Assembly: GCA_025963935.1 (NCBI GenBank)
Contig: JAOPZV010000251.1
Span: forward strand, 1 to 39,026
Origin: Solirubrobacterales bacterium
GTDB lineage: Bacteria > Actinomycetota > Thermoleophilia > Solirubrobacterales > Solirubrobacteraceae
Reading direction: 5' to 3'
Length of the DNA: 39,026 bases
Position numbers and translations under genes: made by a program. The notes under the pieces are model-generated. The model did not search any database. It saw only the letters and a list, made by a program, of their open reading frames with translations, and was not told the DNA's origin. Position 1 is the first letter of the stretch. Each line of letters starts with the position of its first letter. This document shows positions 1 to 14,459 of this stretch, piece after piece.

Positions 1-55
1 CGATGACGCTCAGCGTGCCGCGGAAGGACAGCGCGGGGCCCGGCCGGCGCCAGGG

Positions 56-1867
56 ATGACCGGCCGGCGGCCAGTGGCGCTCGCGCTGCTCGCGAGCGCC
101 AGTGCCCTATCCGCGTGCGGCAACAGCTCGCCGGCGCGCTCGGCCGAACTGCCACCGCAGGCCTCGGTGTCAGCCGCGAGTGCGAACCCTGTGACCGTCT
201 CGCCACTTCCCGGAACAAGCGACGCCTCACCGGCGACCCAGATCAGCTTCCTCGGCGGCCGTGGCACGCGTGTCTCGGAGGTTCGCGTGGTCGGCTCGCG
301 CAGCGGGGTTCATTCCGGGAGCGTGCGGGCCTACTCCACCGGCACCGGCCAGAGCTTCCTTCCCGCGCATCCGTTCCTTTCCGGCGAGCAGGTGCAAGTG
401 ACTGCGCGCCTCGGCCGTGGCGTCGGCGCGCGCGCGGCGAGCACCACCTTCACGGTCGCCGATCGCGCTGCGGTCAGCGAAACGGAGTTCCCGAGCACCC
501 CCGGGGACGCGCGGGCGGTGCAGCACTACAGCTCCGCACCCGAAGTGACGCCCTCAACCGTCAGCGTCACGACGCCGGCCCAGCCTGGCGCCGCACCCGG
601 TTACCTCATGCTCGCGCCCTACCAGGGGCAGGGCTCACCCGGGCCGATGATCGTCGACCAGGCCGGCAGCCTGGTGTGGTTTCACCCGCTGGCGAACGGC
701 CGGCAGGCGACCAACCTCGGGGTGCAGCTGTACATGGGAAGGCCCGTCCTGACGTGGTGGCAGGGACGCATCCTGCAACTGGGGTTCGGGGTCGGCGAAG
801 GCGTCCTCTACGACACCTCCTACCGCCAGCTTGCGCGGATAGCAGCGGGCAACGGCTATCGCGCGGATCTGCACGAGATCCGCCTCACGCCGCAGGGCAC
901 CGCGTGGATCGACGCGTTCGACCCGATCCACATGAACCTGTCGTCCGTGCACGGCGCGGCGCGCGGCCAGCTCAACGATTCGATCGTGCAGGAGATCGAC
1001 ATCAAGACCGGACTGGTGATGTGGGAGTGGCACGCGCTCGGGCACATTCCGTTTGCCGAATCGAACAACCCGCCGCCGTCCTCGAGCTACCCCTGGGACT
1101 TCGCGCACGTCAACTCCATCGACCCGGGCTCGGCCAATGACGTGCTCCTGTCCGCTCGCAACACGTGGGCCATCTATGACGTGGACATCCACAGCGGAGC
1201 CGTCCGCTGGCGGCTCGGCGGTACGCGCAGCAGCTTCACGATGGGACCGGGCGCGCGCTTCTACTGGCAGCACGACGCCAGGTTCCGGCCCGGCGGGCTG
1301 ATCTCGCTGTTCGACAACGGGTCCTACCCCCCGAAGGAGAAGGAGTCGCGCGGCCTGGTGCTTGCCCCCGATCTCGCCAAGCACACCGTCGCGGTCGCCC
1401 GGCAGTTCACGAACCCGACACGGACGCTGCTCGCCGAAAGCCAGGGCAACGCGTTCAGCCTGCCCGGCGGCGGCTGGCTGCTCGGCTACGGCCGCCTGCC
1501 GAACTTCACGGAGTTCGACTCATCCGGCCACGTCCTCCTCGACGGCTCGCTGGGGCGCGACGTGCAGAACTTCACGACGACGCTGTCGCCGTGGCACGGC
1601 AGGCCGCTGAGCACGCCTTCGGTCACCGCGACGCGCGGCGCCGGGGGGACGCTCACAGCTGCCGTGAGCTGGAACGGCGCGACGGATGTCGTCTCGTGGC
1701 GACTGCTCTCCGGGGCCTCGCCGAGCCGCCTCGCGCCGCGCGCGACGACCGCCAAGACAGGTTTTGAGACCGCCGTCTCAGCGCGCGCGCCGGGACCCTA
1801 CGTGGCCGTTCAGGCGCTCGACGGCGCGGGCGCGGTCATCGGGTCCTCCCGCGTTTTGAAGCGCTAG
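56..1867 (+). CDS. Secreted arylsulfotransferase (ASST family), lipoprotein
   Basis: A 603-aa protein that probably transfers sulfate between phenolic sulfate esters outside the cell, independently of PAPS. The N-terminus is a lipoprotein signal with lipobox LSAC (Cys21). Residues about 45-135 look like a beta-sandwich (Ig-like) domain; the rest is the ASST propeller. The residues expected for the catalytic set occur in order in local motifs: DLHE (His273), FAHVNS (His351), SARNTW (Arg368) and WQHDAR (His406). By family knowledge these match the His/His/Arg/His set of E. coli AssT, with His436 there as the sulfo-accepting nucleophile. An FDNGS motif follows. It is a close paralogue of the gene at 3658. 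Its last 32 bp overlap the convergent sulfatase. No clear Shine-Dalgarno is seen before the ATG, so the start rests on the signal peptide. Substrate unknown. Confidence 0.85.
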   Translation: MTGRRPVALALLASASALSACGNSSPARSAELPPQASVSAASANPVTVSPLPGTSDASPATQISFLGGRGTRVSEVRVVGSRSGVHSGSVRAYSTGTGQSFLPAHPFLSGEQVQVTARLGRGVGARAASTTFTVADRAAVSETEFPSTPGDARAVQHYSSAPEVTPSTVSVTTPAQPGAAPGYLMLAPYQGQGSPGPMIVDQAGSLVWFHPLANGRQATNLGVQLYMGRPVLTWWQGRILQLGFGVGEGVLYDTSYRQLARIAAGNGYRADLHEIRLTPQGTAWIDAFDPIHMNLSSVHGAARGQLNDSIVQEIDIKTGLVMWEWHALGHIPFAESNNPPPSSSYPWDFAHVNSIDPGSANDVLLSARNTWAIYDVDIHSGAVRWRLGGTRSSFTMGPGARFYWQHDARFRPGGLISLFDNGSYPPKEKESRGLVLAPDLAKHTVAVARQFTNPTRTLLAESQGNAFSLPGGGWLLGYGRLPNFTEFDSSGHVLLDGSLGRDVQNFTTTLSPWHGRPLSTPSVTATRGAGGTLTAAVSWNGATDVVSWRLLSGASPSRLAPRATTAKTGFETAVSARAPGPYVAVQALDGAGAVIGSSRVLKR

Positions 1868-3659
1868 GCGGGATCGGTGGCCCCGCGCCACTTTCGGTGG
1901 CGCCTTCGATCCGGCCGACCTCGCGTTCGGTCAGGCGTTTGCGCCGGGCGGCTGCGCCTTTCGCCGCGCGCTTTGCAGTCGAGAAGTAATCGGCGAACCC
2001 GCGACCGTGCGCGGCGCGCAGCCGCTGGGGGAGGGGTGCCCGCAGCTCTTCGCTGAAGGCCCGCCGCAGCGTGTCGCGCAGGGCCGCCTCCAGGTGGCTC
2101 TTGCCGGCGCTGCTGTGGAGCTCCAGCCGGCCGCTCTGCGTGCGGTAGTCATATAGCTCTGCTTCCTCGCCGGTCGTCAGCGGCGCGATGCCTTCGGCGG
2201 GCCAGTTCGTGTAGGTCGCGTACTTCGCCGCGGGCGTTCGCAGCCCGACGACGTGCAGCGGCGCGCTGGCGTCGAACTGCTCGATCGCGAACTCGGTGAC
2301 GACCTCGTCGGTCGCATGCAGCACGTAGGGACGACCGGGCGCCGCCGGGTCGGCGAGGATCCCCGCGAGGTCCGCCCGCCCGGCGATATGCGAGTAGTGC
2401 GGCTCTCGTCGCCACCGGCTCGAGCCCGTGGCGATCGTCAACAGCAGCGGCGCCACGTCGACGCTGGAGGTCATCTGGGTTCGGTCCTGCTGCGGCGCGC
2501 GGGTCAGCACGCCACGCGGGTCCTTGACGATCAGCGGTACGCGGATGCACTCGTCGTAGACGCCGGCGCCCTTCCCGCGCAGTCCATGGGAGCCGCCGTA
2601 CTCGCCGTGGTCGGAGGTGAACACGACGACCGTGTTGGCGGCCACGTCCGGCCGGCTCTCGAGCGTTCGCATGACGTGCCCGATGTGTCGGTCGACCTCC
2701 ATCTGCAGCTTCATGTACAGGTCGAGGAAGCTGAGCCACCGCTGGGCGGCTTCGGCGCCCGTGAAGGGCACCGGGCCGAAGGAGGCGGCCGCTGTGGCCT
2801 GCAGTGATTGCTGAAGCCGCGGCTTGCCGCGCCTGCTCAGCATTTCGGGTGTCTCGAAGTTCGGCGGTATGCGTCGCTGCGCGTGCCGGGCCCTCGCCTC
2901 AAAGGCGATGCGATCGCTCCACACGTACCACCAGGCGATGTCGTGCGGGTTGACGAACGAGACGGTCGTGCACCACGGCTCGCCCCCGCCGTCCTTTGCG
3001 TACCACTCGGCGAACTGCGCCGCCACGTGGGGGTCCCTGCGCCAGCCCTGTCCGGGCGCGCCGTCGGGCGAGGGGAACGTGCCGCCGGCAAAGCCATAGC
3101 GCTCGAGCGCCAGTTCGCCGCTCGCCGGCGTCCACCGGTTGTCGTGGTGGGTGAGGTGCCACTTGCCGTACCAGCGGGTGTGGTAACCGTGCTCTCTGAG
3201 CATCGTCCCCCAGGTCGGGAAGCCCGGATCCAGGGTGCTGCCTCCCGTGATCATGCAGCCCGTCTGATGGGTGTACAGGCCCGTGAGAAGCGCGGCGCGC
3301 GAGGGGCTGCAGTCGTTGGAGGCGGTGTAGTGCCTCGTGAATGAGACTGCCCCCTGACGCAGTCGCTGGATGTTTGGTGGCAGCCCCGTCCCGGTGAGCC
3401 CCGGCGAGGTCCACTGGGGAAAGCGCAGCTGATCGACGAGGATCACGAGGATGTTCGGGCGCGCGCTGCCCCGATGGTGCCCGGCGCGGGGTACCCGCGG
3501 TGCCGGCGAGGTGCTTGCGGGCGGACCTGAGTCGCTCGTCGCGTCGGCGACCGCACGGATCGCGAAGCCAGCGCCCAGAGCGCCCCCGACGGCGAGGCCG
3601 CCGCGCAGGAACGTGCGCCGGTCGACTCTCTTATCCTGTTTGCGATCGATGTTGTCCAT
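1836..3659 (-). CDS. Tat-exported sulfatase (alkaline-phosphatase superfamily)
   Basis: A 607-aa sulfatase expected to hydrolyse sulfate esters outside the membrane. From the chosen ATG the N-terminus has a twin-arginine signal (RRTFLRGG, residues 14-21) and then a hydrophobic stretch. The sulfatase signature CSPSR sits at 117-121; by family knowledge Cys117 is converted to formylglycine by a separate maturase not seen here. Metal-site residues include Asp76 (VDQ) and Asp350-His351 (SDHGEYGG), with KWH at 166-168. The C-terminal 60 residues are rich in Lys and Arg. An alternative ATG at 3671 adds four residues; a still longer reading frame to 3884 would bury the Tat signal and is rejected. 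It is divergent from the second ASST, and its start codon overlaps that gene's start. Its 3' end overlaps the first ASST. Substrate not predictable. Confidence 0.88.
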   Translation of the reverse strand: MDNIDRKQDKRVDRRTFLRGGLAVGGALGAGFAIRAVADATSDSGPPASTSPAPRVPRAGHHRGSARPNILVILVDQLRFPQWTSPGLTGTGLPPNIQRLRQGAVSFTRHYTASNDCSPSRAALLTGLYTHQTGCMITGGSTLDPGFPTWGTMLREHGYHTRWYGKWHLTHHDNRWTPASGELALERYGFAGGTFPSPDGAPGQGWRRDPHVAAQFAEWYAKDGGGEPWCTTVSFVNPHDIAWWYVWSDRIAFEARARHAQRRIPPNFETPEMLSRRGKPRLQQSLQATAAASFGPVPFTGAEAAQRWLSFLDLYMKLQMEVDRHIGHVMRTLESRPDVAANTVVVFTSDHGEYGGSHGLRGKGAGVYDECIRVPLIVKDPRGVLTRAPQQDRTQMTSSVDVAPLLLTIATGSSRWRREPHYSHIAGRADLAGILADPAAPGRPYVLHATDEVVTEFAIEQFDASAPLHVVGLRTPAAKYATYTNWPAEGIAPLTTGEEAELYDYRTQSGRLELHSSAGKSHLEAALRDTLRRAFSEELRAPLPQRLRAAHGRGFADYFSTAKRAAKGAAARRKRLTEREVGRIEGATESGAGPPIPPSASKRGRTR

Positions 3660-3675
3660 GCGCGCTCTCATCCTA
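3632..3675. promoter_or_regulatory. Overlapping divergent promoters of sulfatase and second ASST
   Basis: TATCCT at 3632-3637 (+) is a good actinobacterial -10 for the ASST gene; TAGGAT read on the minus strand (3675-3670) is a matching -10 for the sulfatase. Each lies inside the other gene's signal-peptide coding region. Expected start sites near 3644 (+) and 3663 (-) would give transcripts that overlap by about 20 nt at their 5' ends. No convincing -35 boxes are seen. This is inferred from motifs only. Confidence 0.4.
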
Positions 3676-5472
3676 GGGCCGGCAACCGTCCTGGGGCTTG
3701 GGATCGGCAACGTGGCCGCGGCCGCCGCCCAGCCGGCGCCCAACTGCACGCCGGCTACGCTGAACAACTCCGCGATCCAGGGCGGCAGCGTGACGGTGTC
3801 GCCACTCGCCGGCAGCCGGGACGTCTCCCCACGCTCGCAGATCAGCTTTCTCGGGGCGCCGGCGGCCCGCCTCAGCGCGATCACCGTGGTGGGCTCGCGG
3901 ACAGGGCGCCATACCGGGCGACTCGCCGCCTACTCGCAGGGTGACGGTGCGAGCTTCCTCCCGGCGCGTCCGTTCGCCGAAGGCGAGCGGGTTACGGTGC
4001 TTGGCCGGCTTCGCAGCGGCAGGTCTCTCACGCCGCTGCGCGACACATTCAACATCGCCCGGGCGAACCCGGTCAGCTCGACGCCCGAGGCGATCCATCC
4101 GGGGCGCGAGGTCCAGAGCTTTCTCTCGCGTCCCGACCTGCACCCCCCGGCCCTCTCCGTGACGACTGCATCGCCGGCGGTCGCACCCGGGGAGGAGTTC
4201 GTCGCGCCGTACTCCGGGCCCGGTCAGGCCGGCCCGATGATCCTCGACCAGAACGGCCGGCTGGTGTGGTTCAAGGCGCTCGCGACGCATACGTCGGCGA
4301 CAAACTTTCGCGTCCAGCAATTCCAGGGCAAACCGGTCCTCACATGGTGGCAGGGCGACGTCACGGAACATGGCTACGGGCTGGGCACGGACGAGATAGA
4401 CGACAGCACCTACTCGACCCTCGCGATCGTGAGGGCCGGTAACGGCCTCAGCGCCGACCTCCACGAGTTCCAGCTCGGCGGCCAGGGGACCGCCCTGATC
4501 ACCGCTTACAACCCGATCCTCTGCAACCTCTCGACGGTCGGCGGCCCTGCGGCCGGCGCGGTGACCAACGGCATCGTCCAGGTCATCGACGTGGCCACCG
4601 GGCTGGTCAGGCTCGAATGGACGAGCCTCGACCACGTTGCGCTGAGCGAGTCCTACGGGCGTGCGAGCAGCTCCACAACGACATGGCCGTTCGACTTCTT
4701 CCACATCAACTCGATCGACCTGAACACCGACGGCAGCCTGCTCGTGTCGGCCCGCAACACCTGGACCGTCTACAAGGTCGACGGCCACAGCGGGCAGGTC
4801 ATCTGGCGGCTGGGGGGCCGCCACAGCAGCTTCGCGGCCGGAGCCGGCACGCGCACCGCCTGGCAGCACGACCCGCGGCTGCTGGCCAACGGCTCGGTGA
4901 GCGTCTTCGACAACGGGTCCTCGCCACCCGTGCGGGCGGAGTCCCGCGGCATCGTCCTCGACATCGATGCGCAACACAGGAGCACGAAGCTCGTGGCGCA
5001 GTTCACCCACGCTCCGGCGCTGCTCGCCGAAAGCCAGGGGAACATGCAGGCGCTCGACAACGGCGACTGGTTCTTCGGCTGGGGCCAGTTGCCCTACCTC
5101 TCCGAGTTTGGCCCTGAAGGCAAGCTGCTGTTCGACGCGCATTTCCCGGCGCACACCCAGTCCTATCGGAGCTTTCGCTTCCCGTGGACCGGTACCCCGG
5201 CGCACCGCCCGACGTTCGCCCTACAGACCGGCAGGGGGCCGGCGACCGTCTTCGCCACCTGGAACGGCGCCACGCTCGTCGCCTCCTGGCGGGTCCTCGC
5301 GGGCCGCGATCCGGCGAGCCTTCAGGTCGTCGCACAGGCCCCGCGCGAAGGCTTCGAGACGCCGGTGGCGTTGCCCGCCGGCACCGTCGGTCCGGATCTC
5401 GCCGTGCAGGCGCTGGACGCGGCGGGACAGGTGCTTGGAACCTCCGCGACGGTCGCCGAGCCGGGCTTATGA
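3658..5472 (+). CDS. Secreted arylsulfotransferase (ASST family), second paralogue
   Basis: A 604-aa paralogue of the gene at 56, with the same architecture: N-terminal signal peptide (hydrophobic about residues 3-24, Ala-rich cleavage region, no lipobox), an Ig-like N-domain (about 43-135) and an ASST propeller. The catalytic-type residues are conserved: His269 (DLHE), His349 (FFHINS), Arg366 (SARNTW) and His404 (WQHDPR), then FDNGS. The first paralogue is a predicted lipoprotein while this one looks freely secreted, so the two may act in different places. The ATG at 3658 is chosen because it gives a compact signal peptide; an in-frame ATG at 3649 is also possible. The start codon overlaps that of the divergent sulfatase by 2 bp (CATG at 3657-3660). 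The pairing suggests shared handling of sulfate esters, which is inference. Confidence 0.86.
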   Translation: MRALILGPATVLGLGIGNVAAAAAQPAPNCTPATLNNSAIQGGSVTVSPLAGSRDVSPRSQISFLGAPAARLSAITVVGSRTGRHTGRLAAYSQGDGASFLPARPFAEGERVTVLGRLRSGRSLTPLRDTFNIARANPVSSTPEAIHPGREVQSFLSRPDLHPPALSVTTASPAVAPGEEFVAPYSGPGQAGPMILDQNGRLVWFKALATHTSATNFRVQQFQGKPVLTWWQGDVTEHGYGLGTDEIDDSTYSTLAIVRAGNGLSADLHEFQLGGQGTALITAYNPILCNLSTVGGPAAGAVTNGIVQVIDVATGLVRLEWTSLDHVALSESYGRASSSTTTWPFDFFHINSIDLNTDGSLLVSARNTWTVYKVDGHSGQVIWRLGGRHSSFAAGAGTRTAWQHDPRLLANGSVSVFDNGSSPPVRAESRGIVLDIDAQHRSTKLVAQFTHAPALLAESQGNMQALDNGDWFFGWGQLPYLSEFGPEGKLLFDAHFPAHTQSYRSFRFPWTGTPAHRPTFALQTGRGPATVFATWNGATLVASWRVLAGRDPASLQVVAQAPREGFETPVALPAGTVGPDLAVQALDAAGQVLGTSATVAEPGL

Positions 5473-5508
5473 GCGGTCGAGGAGATCAGGTCTCGGGCGG
5501 CGGGCCGC

Positions 5509-6276
5509 TCAGGAGCCCTCGGCGGCAAGCGCATCGAGCAGCGCGAGCAGCCGGGCCGCGTTACGGGGCGCGAAAGCCTCCCAGTCGTTGTTGAAGTAGA
5601 CGAACACGGGGCCGTCCGCGCGCCACCGGTGCAGTCGCTCCGCCCAGGTCTGGAGCTCGGCCGGCGAGTAGTTGCCGCGCCGTCCGCGGCTTCCGTAGTG
5701 CATGCGCACGTAGCGCCACGGAGCGGTGGCCTCGTAGCTCTGAAAGCGGCGCTGCGGATGATCGCCCACGACGAGCGCCGCTTCGTTTTCGCGCAGCAGC
5801 TCATAGACGTCCGGCGAGAACCAGCTCGGGTGGCGGAACTCAAAGGCGTGCAGGCCTTGGGGCAGCTGATCCAGGCAGCCGGCGAGGCGCTCGAGGTCCT
5901 TGTGGAAGTTCTCCGGGAGCTGCCACAGGACCGGGCCGAGGCGCTCGCCCTCGAGCATCGGCTGAAGGCGCTCGTAGAAACGCTCCACTCCGTCGGCGAT
6001 GCTCCCCAGGCGACGCACGTGCGTGAGGTAGCGGCTGGCCTTCACCGCGAAGATGAAGCTCTCGGGCGTCTGCTCCACCCAGTGTGCGACGGCGTCGCGC
6101 GCGATCAGGCGGTAGAAGGTGGTGTTGACCTCAACCGTGTCGAAGTGGCGCGCGTAGTGCTCCAGCCAGCGTCGCGCCGGCAGCTTCGCCGGATAGAAGG
6201 AGCCACGCCAATCGCGATAGTTCCACCCGGAGCAGCCGACGTGAGCGGGGTGTAGTTCTGTCTGGATCGCGGGCAT
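5509..6276 (-). CDS. DUF72 (YecE-like) TIM-barrel protein
   Basis: A 255-aa protein of the DUF72 family, usual length about 240-290 aa. Diagnostic features are GCSGWNYRDWRG near the N-terminus, FDTVEVNTTFYR, FAVKASRYLTH, a central LWQLPENF and a late VYFNNDWEA. The family is a soluble TIM barrel of unknown activity, sometimes linked to DNA or nuclease functions without firm proof. The start at 6276 places the conserved GCSGWNY about 12 residues in; an in-frame ATG at 6342 would add 22 residues that do not look conserved. It converges with the second ASST (36-bp gap) and diverges from the GH76 gene. No membrane segment or signal peptide is visible, so it should be cytoplasmic. Confidence 0.85.
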   Translation of the reverse strand: MPAIQTELHPAHVGCSGWNYRDWRGSFYPAKLPARRWLEHYARHFDTVEVNTTFYRLIARDAVAHWVEQTPESFIFAVKASRYLTHVRRLGSIADGVERFYERLQPMLEGERLGPVLWQLPENFHKDLERLAGCLDQLPQGLHAFEFRHPSWFSPDVYELLRENEAALVVGDHPQRRFQSYEATAPWRYVRMHYGSRGRRGNYSPAELQTWAERLHRWRADGPVFVYFNNDWEAFAPRNAARLLALLDALAAEGS

Positions 6277-6362
6277 CCTCGACCGGCCGTTCGTCCATGC
6301 TATTCGCGGGTGCCGCGGATCCCACGTCGTGTCGGTTAGCATCGCGAGCAGCGCTTATCGCC

Positions 6363-6372: not shown

Positions 6373-7563
6373 ATGTTGGGGGGTCCAGACTTGAAAGCCG
6401 GCGCCGTCGCGCGCCTAGCCGTTGCGGTTGTCCTGTGCGTGCTCGCGGCCTCCCCAGCCGCCGGTGCCTCCGCCTCAACCGGCGGCTCCGCGCTCGCCCG
6501 CACACCGACCGCCGGCCATGCCAGCGCGGCGACGGGCTACCTGCAGCTCGCCGAACAGGGCGTGGCACGCGCGCAGCACGCGTGGCGTGACGCGCGCCGC
6601 GGCTGGTATGACGAACGGCTGGGCGACCGCGAACGCTTCCCGCTTGCCACGATCTGGGGCATCGCGCCGCTGTTCGAGGCGCTCAACGCAATCGATATCG
6701 CGGCGCCGACCGCGCCGCACCGCGCCGCGGTCAACGCGTTCGCCGCAGGCGCCGAGCGCTACTACAACTCCCACCTGCGACCGACGCCGGGTTACGCGCC
6801 GTATCCGAACGACCGCGGCCAGGTGCGCACGTGGTTCGACGACAACGGCTGGTGGGGCCTTGCCTTCATGGACGCCTATCGCGCCACGGGCAACGCCCGC
6901 TACCTGCGCGACGCCGAGCGGGCCTTCGCGTTCATCGCCGCGCAAGGATGGGATAGCGCCCACGGCGGCGTGTGGTGGAACACCTCACACCCCTACAAGG
7001 CCGGTGAGGCGCTCGCGGCGGGCTCGCTGCTCGGCGCGCTGATCTTCCAGCGGACCCACAACGCGTTCTACCTCAACCAGGTCAACAAGTTCCTGACGTG
7101 GGCGGATGCGCACTTCCTGACCGACCTGAGGCTGTATGCGCGCACGGATTCAGACTCGACCCCCACCCCCTATGTCGAGGGGCCGCTCGTCGAGGCCCAC
7201 CAGATCCTCTGCCAGGCCGGGCAGCAGGCTGCCTGCGCCCGGGCGAGGGAGCTCGCGAAAGCCTGCTGGGACCGCTTCGAAGCGAGACTTGAGATGGGCC
7301 CCCAGTTCGACGCGATCTACCTGCACTGGATGCTCGTGTACGCGGCTCAGACCGGCGACAGCCGCTGGCCGGCGCTCGCGGCCCAGATGGCGGTCAGCGC
7401 ACAGGCGAACGCGCTCGATCCGCAACGCGGCCTGTACCTGCGGGCGTGGGACGGGACGTCGATCACTCAGCACGAAGCGAGGCCTAACATGCTCCAGACC
7501 GACGCCGCCACCCTGCAGCTGTTCGCCTGGGTCGCGGCGGGAGCTGCGGGGAAGCTGCCGTGA
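6373..7563 (+). CDS. Secreted glycoside hydrolase family 76 protein
   Basis: A 396-aa secreted protein with the alpha/alpha-toroid pattern of GH76, whose characterised members are endo-alpha-1,6-mannanases. A signal peptide covers residues 1-32 (hydrophobic core, Ala-rich cleavage region). The aligned catalytic pair is WFDDNGWW, with Asp156 and Asp157. Other family-like stretches are GWWGLAFMDAYR, GGVWWN, YVEGPLVEAH and the late RPNMLQTDAA. Length matches the family. Likely substrates are alpha-mannan from fungal walls or actinobacterial mannosides, but the specificity cannot be read from sequence. It has its own ribosome site and diverges from the DUF72 gene. No surface anchor is seen, so it is probably released. 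Confidence 0.82.
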   Translation: MLGGPDLKAGAVARLAVAVVLCVLAASPAAGASASTGGSALARTPTAGHASAATGYLQLAEQGVARAQHAWRDARRGWYDERLGDRERFPLATIWGIAPLFEALNAIDIAAPTAPHRAAVNAFAAGAERYYNSHLRPTPGYAPYPNDRGQVRTWFDDNGWWGLAFMDAYRATGNARYLRDAERAFAFIAAQGWDSAHGGVWWNTSHPYKAGEALAAGSLLGALIFQRTHNAFYLNQVNKFLTWADAHFLTDLRLYARTDSDSTPTPYVEGPLVEAHQILCQAGQQAACARARELAKACWDRFEARLEMGPQFDAIYLHWMLVYAAQTGDSRWPALAAQMAVSAQANALDPQRGLYLRAWDGTSITQHEARPNMLQTDAATLQLFAWVAAGAAGKLP

Positions 7564-8019: not shown

Positions 8020-8080
8020 ACCGCCAGCCTCCCAGTCAGGCGAGCCAGCCCACGGCGGGTCGTCTCACCGACCATCGAGG

Positions 8081-8170
8081 CGGAAGGGGGGGGATTCGAA
8101 CCCCCGAGACGGGTGTTGCCCGCCTAACGGTTTTCAAGACCGCCGCATTCAACCGCTCTGCCACCCTTCC
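8081..8170 (-). tRNA. tRNA-Ser (UGA anticodon)
   Basis: Read on the minus strand, a 90-nt cloverleaf with the long variable arm of a class II tRNA. The acceptor stem is GGAAGGG paired with CCCTTCC, with discriminator G at 8081. The anticodon loop CTTGAAA gives UGA (serine). The T-arm has GGTTCGAATCC, and the D-arm contains GCAGAGCGGTTGAA. CCA is not encoded. The coordinates were set by hand from the acceptor pairing. Confidence 0.95.
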
Positions 8171-9372: not shown

Positions 9373-9461
9373 GGAGAGGTGGCCGAGCGGCTGAAGGCAC
9401 TCGCCTGCTAAGCGAGTATGGGGATCAAACTCCATCGCGGGTTCGAATCCCGCCCTCTCCG
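9373..9461 (+). tRNA. tRNA-Ser (GCU anticodon)
   Basis: An 89-nt class II tRNA. The acceptor GGAGAGG (9373-9379) pairs with CCTCTCC (9454-9460), with discriminator G at 9461. The anticodon stem-loop CTCGC-CTGCTAA-GCGAG gives GCU (serine, AGC/AGU codons). A long variable arm precedes the T-arm GGGTTCGAATCCC. CCA is not encoded. Confidence 0.95.
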
Positions 9462-13785: not shown

Positions 13786-14459
13786 CGAGCCTCGCCGTGC
13801 AGGCGGTAGCCGCTGCCGCGAACTGTCTCCAAAGTGCGGCGCCCAAAGGGCCGGTCGATCTTCTCGCGCAGGCGCCTGATGTACGCGTCGACGACGTTCG
13901 AGCGGTTCTCATAGGCCTGGTCCCACGCAGACTCCAGCAGTTCCAGCCGCGAGAGCACCTCACCGGGCCGTGTCATGAATGCCTCCAGGAGCAGCATCTC
14001 CTTGGCCGACAGCGAGAGCTCGGTCTGCCCCCGCCAGACTCTCATGCCGGCCGAGTCCAGGCGCAGGTCACCGACCTCCAGAACCTCGGGACGACGCGCG
14101 GGCGGACGTCTGGCGAGCGCGCGCACACGCGCGAGAAGCTCCTCGAACGAAAACGGCTTGATCAGGTAGTCGTCGGCGCCATCGTTCAAGCCGGTAACGC
14201 GATCTCCGACGCCGTCGCGCGCCGTGAGCAACAGGATGGGCGCCTCCACGCCGTCGGCTCGCAGGCGCCGACATGTCTCGAATCCGTCGATGCCGGGCAG
14301 CATCACGTCGAGGATCAGAACGTCGAACGGCGCGCTTCCGGCCATCCACAGCGCGTCCTCCCCCCGCTCCGTGACGTCGACGACCATCCCGTGCCTCTGA
14401 AATTTGCTGCGCAGCAGGCCGGCCAGCTTGGCGTGGTCCTCGACGATCAACACACGCAT
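13782..14459 (-). CDS. OmpR/PhoB-family response regulator
   Basis: A 225-aa two-domain regulator. The receiver domain has the acidic pair at Glu7-Asp8, phospho-acceptor Asp51 (LILDVMLPG), Thr79 and Lys101 (KPFSFEEL). The C-terminal winged helix (about 128-225) shows SLSAKEMLLLEAFM, the recognition-helix region SNVVDAYIRRLREKI and the terminal RGSGYRL. The start at 14459 is the ATG that gives a standard receiver N-terminus (MRVLIVEDH); an in-frame TTG at 14492 is unlikely. It is followed by and coupled to the histidine kinase. No strong ribosome site is seen. A GC-rich hairpin upstream separates it from the small secreted protein gene. Confidence 0.94.
   Translation of the reverse strand: MRVLIVEDHAKLAGLLRSKFQRHGMVVDVTERGEDALWMAGSAPFDVLILDVMLPGIDGFETCRRLRADGVEAPILLLTARDGVGDRVTGLNDGADDYLIKPFSFEELLARVRALARRPPARRPEVLEVGDLRLDSAGMRVWRGQTELSLSAKEMLLLEAFMTRPGEVLSRLELLESAWDQAYENRSNVVDAYIRRLREKIDRPFGRRTLETVRGSGYRLHGEAR

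Follow-up and report, generated by a model that had tools for sequence, protein, structure and literature searches.

The present analysis identified, at the start of a contig from a Solirubrobacterales bacterium (JAOPZV010000251.1), two arylsulfate sulfotransferase (ASST) genes that bracket a gene encoding an exported sulfatase. It also revealed that this bracket is conserved in the genus, within an island where relatives carry an exporter fused to an ASST domain. The window, i.e. the whole stretch of DNA analyzed (39,026 nucleotides), is the entire contig C172 of the source genome, a draft that is 82.5% complete. Judging from sequence, the chances are about even that these genes encode a cell-surface system of Cpz4-type sulfuryl transfer, tied to export and independent of 3′-phosphoadenosine 5′-phosphosulfate (PAPS), in which the sulfatase would be an off-switch or a recycler. 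The three genes of the bracket are:

56 (ATG) to 1867 (stop), plus strand: ASST1 (alpha), a Cpz4-type arylsulfate sulfotransferase and predicted lipoprotein (PF14269, Cpz4 match, lipobox)
1836 (stop) to 3659 (Met; the start may be 3671), minus strand: S1-family sulfatase exported by twin-arginine translocation (Tat), with CSPSR at Cys117 (PF00884)
3649 to 5472 (alternative start 3658), plus strand: ASST2 (beta), a secreted Cpz4-type arylsulfate sulfotransferase (PF14269, Cpz4 match)

Conservation of the bracket

Two full-length ASST paralogues flanking a sulfatase had been proposed from the letters of the window alone (hereafter the sequence-only reading), and were confirmed by the open reading frames and by Pfam matches well over cut-off (PF14269, E 1.1e-50 in ASST1 and 2.3e-54 in ASST2; PF00884, E 1.1e-37 in the sulfatase). 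The two ASSTs share 48% identity. The arrangement is not due to chance, since the source genome (2.6 Mb) contains few such genes (five ASST and two sulfatase genes) and other genomes of the genus show it as well. The three genes were not considered as an operon, since their strands alternate. Elsewhere in this genome, a second tandem ASST pair whose ends touch (contig C46, L040 2338-5969) lies between genes for a methylmalonyl-CoA mutase and a TetR-type regulator.

The sulfatase was searched in 101 genomes. An orthologue sharing at least 66% identity is present in 12 genomes of the same genus (source genome included), and 11 of these 12 loci carry ASSTs on both sides in the orientation of the window, the twelfth contig being cut on one side. 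The conserved neighbourhood in relatives, on which the sequence-only reading had made its proposal depend, was therefore found when looked for. In an ASST tree of 44 rows, alpha, beta, gamma and delta each constitute a distinct clade of orthologues. The divergent partner of the sulfatase always belongs to the beta clade (ASST2), and its convergent partner to the alpha clade (ASST1) in six loci and to the gamma clade in six others, alpha lying behind gamma where the contig allows. In two genomes of a sister genus, only the convergent side carries an ASST. Among 79 named loci with sulfatase homologues, ASSTs are found nearby in six, all titled Solirubrobacterales or Solirubrobacteraceae, and no ASST lies near the homologue in the 73 others, which include Nocardia and Mycobacterium. 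Since the sulfatase family is widespread and its ASST neighbours are confined to Solirubrobacterales in these loci, the bracket looks like a lineage innovation built around a general sulfatase.

Gene packing and divergent start region

Within the bracket, the genes overlap at both junctions:

1836 to 1867, no strand: antisense overlap (32 nt) between the ASST1 and sulfatase genes at their 3′ ends, from the reading frame coordinates
3632 to 3637, plus strand: TATCCT, candidate -10 element of ASST2 lying within the leader codons of the sulfatase, proposed from codon bias
3649 to 3671, no strand: region where the ASST2 and sulfatase genes overlap at their divergent starts, from an alignment of nine loci

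The 3′-end overlap measures 21-44 nt in 10 of the 12 loci (exactly 32 nt in seven) and is absent in L052 and L019. The start of ASST2 given mechanically by its reading frame (3451) was rejected as too early. The start region was aligned, and its codons counted, in nine of the 12 loci, leaving out L048, L051 and L019, which gave no match to the Tat pattern; the ATG at 3649 is retained in all nine and the one at 3658 is not. The Asp/His/Asn codon overlapping the TAT element ends in T in all nine readable loci, compared to 64 of the 445 Asp/His codons of the same genes. This bias, observed in loci that are related to one another, suggests that ASST2 may be transcribed with almost no leader, TATCCT being its -10 element. 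A plain sigma-70 scan of positions 1700-5700 gave no promoter, and a terminator scan of the same positions found nothing. Overall, the shared divergent start region appears to be under constraint beyond coding, which speaks for the function proposed below.

Cpz4-type arylsulfate sulfotransferases

The closest solved structures of both ASSTs are chains of the same protein, 9kf4 for ASST1 (E 5.3e-96) and 9kf6 for ASST2 (E 6.3e-105), which the structure library labels as Streptomyces Cpz4, involved in caprazamycin synthesis, and for which it includes a reaction intermediate. Cpz4 also ranked first in a structure search with the AlphaFold model of ASST2 (39% identity, Z 20.5, rmsd 11.6, 370 aligned residues). 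The match of ASST2 to the solved Cpz4 chain begins around residue 147, so that the N-terminal region of both ASSTs lies outside it. The same search retrieved EcAST from uropathogenic E. coli (PDB 3elq, 3ets, 3ett) with a Z of 13.1, barely over unrelated propellers (Z 12.7), and therefore the fold alone is no argument for kinship with EcAST. A profile of 13 ASSTs aligned weakly with EcAST (E 0.076). In this alignment, H349, N351, R366 and H404 of ASST2 (counted from start 3658) fall exactly on His356, Asn358, Arg374 and His436, named as catalytic residues of EcAST in a review (PMC13426309). In ASST1 numbering, H273, H351, N353, R368 and H406 (H330 and others aside) are invariant in 14/14 ASSTs, fusion proteins included, and the active-site set claimed by the sequence-only reading is thus present in both window proteins, at the equivalents of these four EcAST residues. 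Position H273, outside the alignment, could be the equivalent of EcAST His252.

On the profile, the homology with Cpz4 and the catalytic set, ASST1 and ASST2 would both belong to the PAPS-independent arylsulfate sulfotransferase family (PF14269), Cpz4 type. From these features and their export signals, we infer that they catalyze sulfotransfer outside the cell. The lipoprotein nature predicted for ASST1 agrees with its lipobox (LSAC, Cys21), a pattern present in 11 of 12 alpha-type sequences including that of the window, the exception being L049 (LCAC). ASST2, which had been read as released, shows by eye a secretion signal and no lipobox.

The sequence-only reading considered ASST systems as mostly described in Enterobacteria and anaerobes, and recognized no characterized soil-actinobacterial cluster with hydrolysis next to transfer. 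This has to be corrected in that actinobacterial ASSTs are known, namely Cpz4 from Streptomyces as well as LpmB and Aba19/Teg19 (PMC11727664 for the latter). Cpz4, LpmB and Aba19/Teg19 share with the window proteins their family over nearly the whole catalytic part and the same catalytic set. Cpz4 belongs to an antibiotic pathway, whereas several paralogues, one of them a lipoprotein, occur here with a sulfatase and, in relatives, with an exporter fusion. EcAST resembles the window proteins by its aligned catalytic residues, its propeller fold and its export, but it is very distant and is encoded with DsbL/DsbI, with no sulfatase or exporter (PMC13426309). According to this review, PAPS-independent transfer is established for Cpz4, which prefers the sugar hydroxyls of glycosides over phenols, and the natural acceptors and physiological roles of most ASSTs are not known. 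The earlier idea that sulfate could be moved between phenols is thus too narrow.

An exporter-ASST fusion in the island of relatives

In relatives, the genes found leftward of alpha are, in this order, an SNF2 helicase gene, the delta ASST gene, a gene called here epsilon, and alpha itself. The window therefore contains only the right half of the island, its contig stopping where delta and epsilon would begin. In all four full-length examples scanned, the epsilon protein (about 1000 residues) combines an MFS_1 and a PF14269 domain within a single frame. Their MFS half resembles EmrB/LmrA pumps of the DHA2 type (TIGR00711, 206 bits, under the curated cut-off of 230). In an AlphaFold model of moderate confidence, 15 long helices (14+1) precede the propeller, and the best structural match is EfpA (Z 42.6, rmsd 3.4 over 457 residues). 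DHA2 pumps have 14 helices and end inside the cell; the fifteenth helix of the model would therefore place the fused ASST domain on the outer side of the membrane. The exporter half is thus of a known type, from which the fusion differs by this additional helix and by the ASST domain.

Four of the five epsilon proteins compared are 78-83% identical to the first one; the identities of 13 alpha-to-delta ASSTs relative to ASST2 are lower (44-77%). Full-length epsilon was found in 28 of 232 genomes of the order (18 of the 24 genomes of this genus, four of a sister genus and six of a third genus), and a partial copy in another family. It lies inside the island in six genomes (G002, G004, G010, G014, G018 and G022), G010 carrying epsilon and delta as an inverted block. 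At the epsilon position of two other genomes (L153, G011:C39, 5617-12767, and G012:C151:22596-24041), an exporter half is present and the ASST half is not in the same frame; the genus thus seems to harbour both fused and unfused forms of the exporter. The relative with the most similar sulfatase (81% identity), G014, carries delta-epsilon-alpha on one contig and alpha-sulfatase-beta-DUF72-GH76 on another, both ending in alpha.

The left part of the island can be followed in the source genome up to an assembly gap. Contig C236 of this genome ends in delta, beside the same SNF2 gene as in relatives. The window contig opens 55 bases before ASST1 with the following feature:

3 to 59, plus strand: 3′ end of an upstream open frame running off the contig, possibly the tail of the island exporter

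This frame stops in an ATGA over the start of ASST1, and an ATGA or GTGA junction joins epsilon and alpha in four of five relatives, hence the tentative reading of this short frame as an exporter tail. Since C236 ends in delta and C172 starts with this junction, the two contigs probably adjoin across the gap.

Sulfatase and its maturation

The Tat export and the CSPSR motif assigned to the sulfatase by the sequence-only reading were both retrieved. Its Tat motif is RRTFLRGG, R14 and R15 being nearly invariant across 19 sequences. Over 35 homologues, C117, R121, D76, D350, H351, K166, H168, H239 and K363 are invariant and P119 nearly so. The protein thus has the CxPxR motif and the metal site of the alkaline-phosphatase fold that define type I (formylglycine) S1 sulfatases, and shares them with S1 enzymes of the choline-sulfatase and GlcNAc-6-sulfatase type. 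It differs from these by scoring far under every specific NCBIfam cut-off, so that its substrate cannot be named, and by the lack of a recognized maturase in most genomes of the genus. Its best matching solved structures include carbohydrate sulfatases. The second sulfatase gene of the source genome (contig C28, L042 693-2863) is adjacent to a frame that matches PF13469 weakly and contains an RSGSTLL motif, a possible sulfotransferase-sulfatase pair.

Type I sulfatases require formylglycine. In the source genome, a query for the formylglycine-generating enzyme (FGE) found none in the 82.5% draft, and no anaerobic sulfatase-maturating enzyme (anSME) passed its cut-off. Since the same FGE query retrieved the enzyme in 69 of the 232 genomes of the order, the search itself works. 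Among the 24 genomes of the genus, a full-length FGE is encoded by one (G009), where the island is absent, and an anSME over cut-off by two, one of which (G023) has the island. The sole PF03781 protein of the source genome (L008 1258-2442, G000:C141) was not retained as an FGE, since it resembles EgtB (321 bits, cut-off 360), lies beside EgtD, which points to ergothioneine, and lacks the cysteine pair of the G009 protein, which we take to be a feature of FGE. CxPxR sulfatases are common in the genus although FGE and anSME are scarce.

Proposed function and alternative explanations

In the complete form of the island, found in relatives, a DHA2/EfpA-like pump would export a small hydroxylated compound or lipid, and the ASST domain behind the fifteenth helix would act on the outer side of this pump. 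The lipoprotein ASST1, the membrane-anchored delta and the secreted ASST2 and gamma would act alongside the fusion, taking sulfate from an aryl-sulfate donor and handing it on to hydroxyl groups on phenols, glycosides or lipids in a ping-pong mechanism through a sulfated histidine. The divergently transcribed Tat sulfatase would strip sulfate from the esters and thereby end or reverse the exchange. In this scheme, the donor, the acceptor, the direction of transfer, the functional coupling and the maturation of the sulfatase are only guessed.

Several observations weigh against this explanation. (i) No canonical FGE was found in any of the 12 island genomes and an anSME over cut-off in only one (G023), so that 11 of 12 carry the sulfatase without a recognized maturase (FGE or anSME), which weakens the proposed release of sulfate by hydrolysis. 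(ii) Fourteen loci with only paralogous sulfatases, several of them short contigs, show no ASST. (iii) EcAST His252 and Thr501 lie outside the profile alignment. (iv) The AlphaFold models are weak (pLDDT 56 for ASST2 and 64.5 for epsilon). (v) In G003, G008 and G020, the fusion is found on a contig other than that of the island, and hence does not need an adjacent sulfatase. (vi) No epsilon match was found in the 82.5% draft assembly of the source genome. The delta of the source genome has that of G012 as its sister, and in G012 an MFS gene without ASST half lies between delta and alpha, so that the source genome may likewise be devoid of the fusion. Concerning maturation, the sulfatase would either be processed by a different kind of maturase, or be active unmodified, or have no hydrolase role in the cell. 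In M. tuberculosis without FGE, residual sulfatase activity is reported to persist and is attributed to other sulfatase types (PMC3141025).

A bolder and more tentative version makes the exporter itself the center of the system. Its 15-helix protein would carry a sulfotransferase of its own on the extracellular side. This outer domain would sulfate (or desulfate) the cargo and form, with the surface and secreted ASSTs and the sulfatase, a PAPS-free extracellular sulfate relay. As most genomes of the genus lack FGE and anSME, the sulfatase may here be matured by a new kind of maturase or work with its cysteine unmodified.

Editing of surface glycans is rather unlikely. PAPS-dependent sulfotransferases would make a sulfated exopolysaccharide or glycolipid, and the ASSTs and the sulfatase would remodel its sulfates outside the cell. 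Such a role would fit the preference of Cpz4 for sugar hydroxyls (PMC13426309) and the carbohydrate sulfatases among the best solved matches of the sulfatase. In the stretches read, PF13469 arrays lie, by eye, amid glycosyltransferase- and chain-length-like genes, and at least three PF13469 matches are present in 11 of 12 island genomes compared to two of 12 others (Fisher p 6e-4). However, this co-occurrence was rejected as support, since on an rpoB tree (17 of the 24 genomes, the other seven having no rpoB match) the island and the arrays each change twice, with one independent pair, which gives no support beyond ancestry. Moreover, the arrays are not on island contigs, and no PF13469 match was found in G004 despite its island, although this genome is only 66% complete. 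The PAPS-type arrays themselves (L186-L190; contigs C245, C68 and C107 of the source genome, G002:C20 and G008:C1), with 12 PF13469 matches in the source genome, are suggestive of a sulfated exopolysaccharide.

Still less probable is a defence against phenols or toxins, in which phenolics of peat and soil would be pumped out and sulfated outside against re-entry, the sulfatase being incidental. The pump half of the fusion does resemble the multidrug pumps EmrB, QacA and EfpA, and known ASSTs sulfate many phenols (PMC13426309), but the conserved sulfatase bracket with its overlapping starts and the retention of several ASST paralogues side by side would be left unexplained. We give the same low weight to mere proximity, i.e. 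lineage-specific ASST duplications that would have built up near a sulfatase for general sulfate scavenging, the genes having no pathway in common. ASSTs are indeed expanded in the genus (3-10 copies per genome in 24 genomes), and 73 of 79 loci with sulfatase homologues, including those of Nocardia and Mycobacterium, are devoid of neighbouring ASSTs. However, the divergent starts overlap, and even as sulfatase identity drops to 66%, the orthologous ASSTs keep their side and orientation in 11 of 12 genomes.

Other genes of the window

Downstream of ASST2, the window carries a DUF72 gene (5509-6342, minus strand) followed by a GH76-like gene (6373-7563, plus strand), and these two genes also adjoin the ASST2 orthologue in G014 (L043). 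ARAGORN detected three tRNA genes, Ser tga (8079-8170), Ser gct (9373-9461) and Gln ctg (14261-14356).

Significance

Searches of the open-access literature found no description of this cluster or of an exporter-ASST fusion, and the part examined of one fungal transcriptome paper describes no such fusion. The parts of the island are of known kinds, and it is their assembly, above all the exporter-ASST fusion, that was not found described in the literature searched. An island with several ASSTs, a sulfatase and an exporter fusion offers a concrete and testable physiological setting for extracellular sulfotransfer in uncultured soil bacteria. The missing maturase makes FGE-independent activation of sulfatases directly testable within one genus. 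If confirmed, the fusion of an exporter with a sulfotransferase facing outward would couple export to chemical modification in a compact manner.

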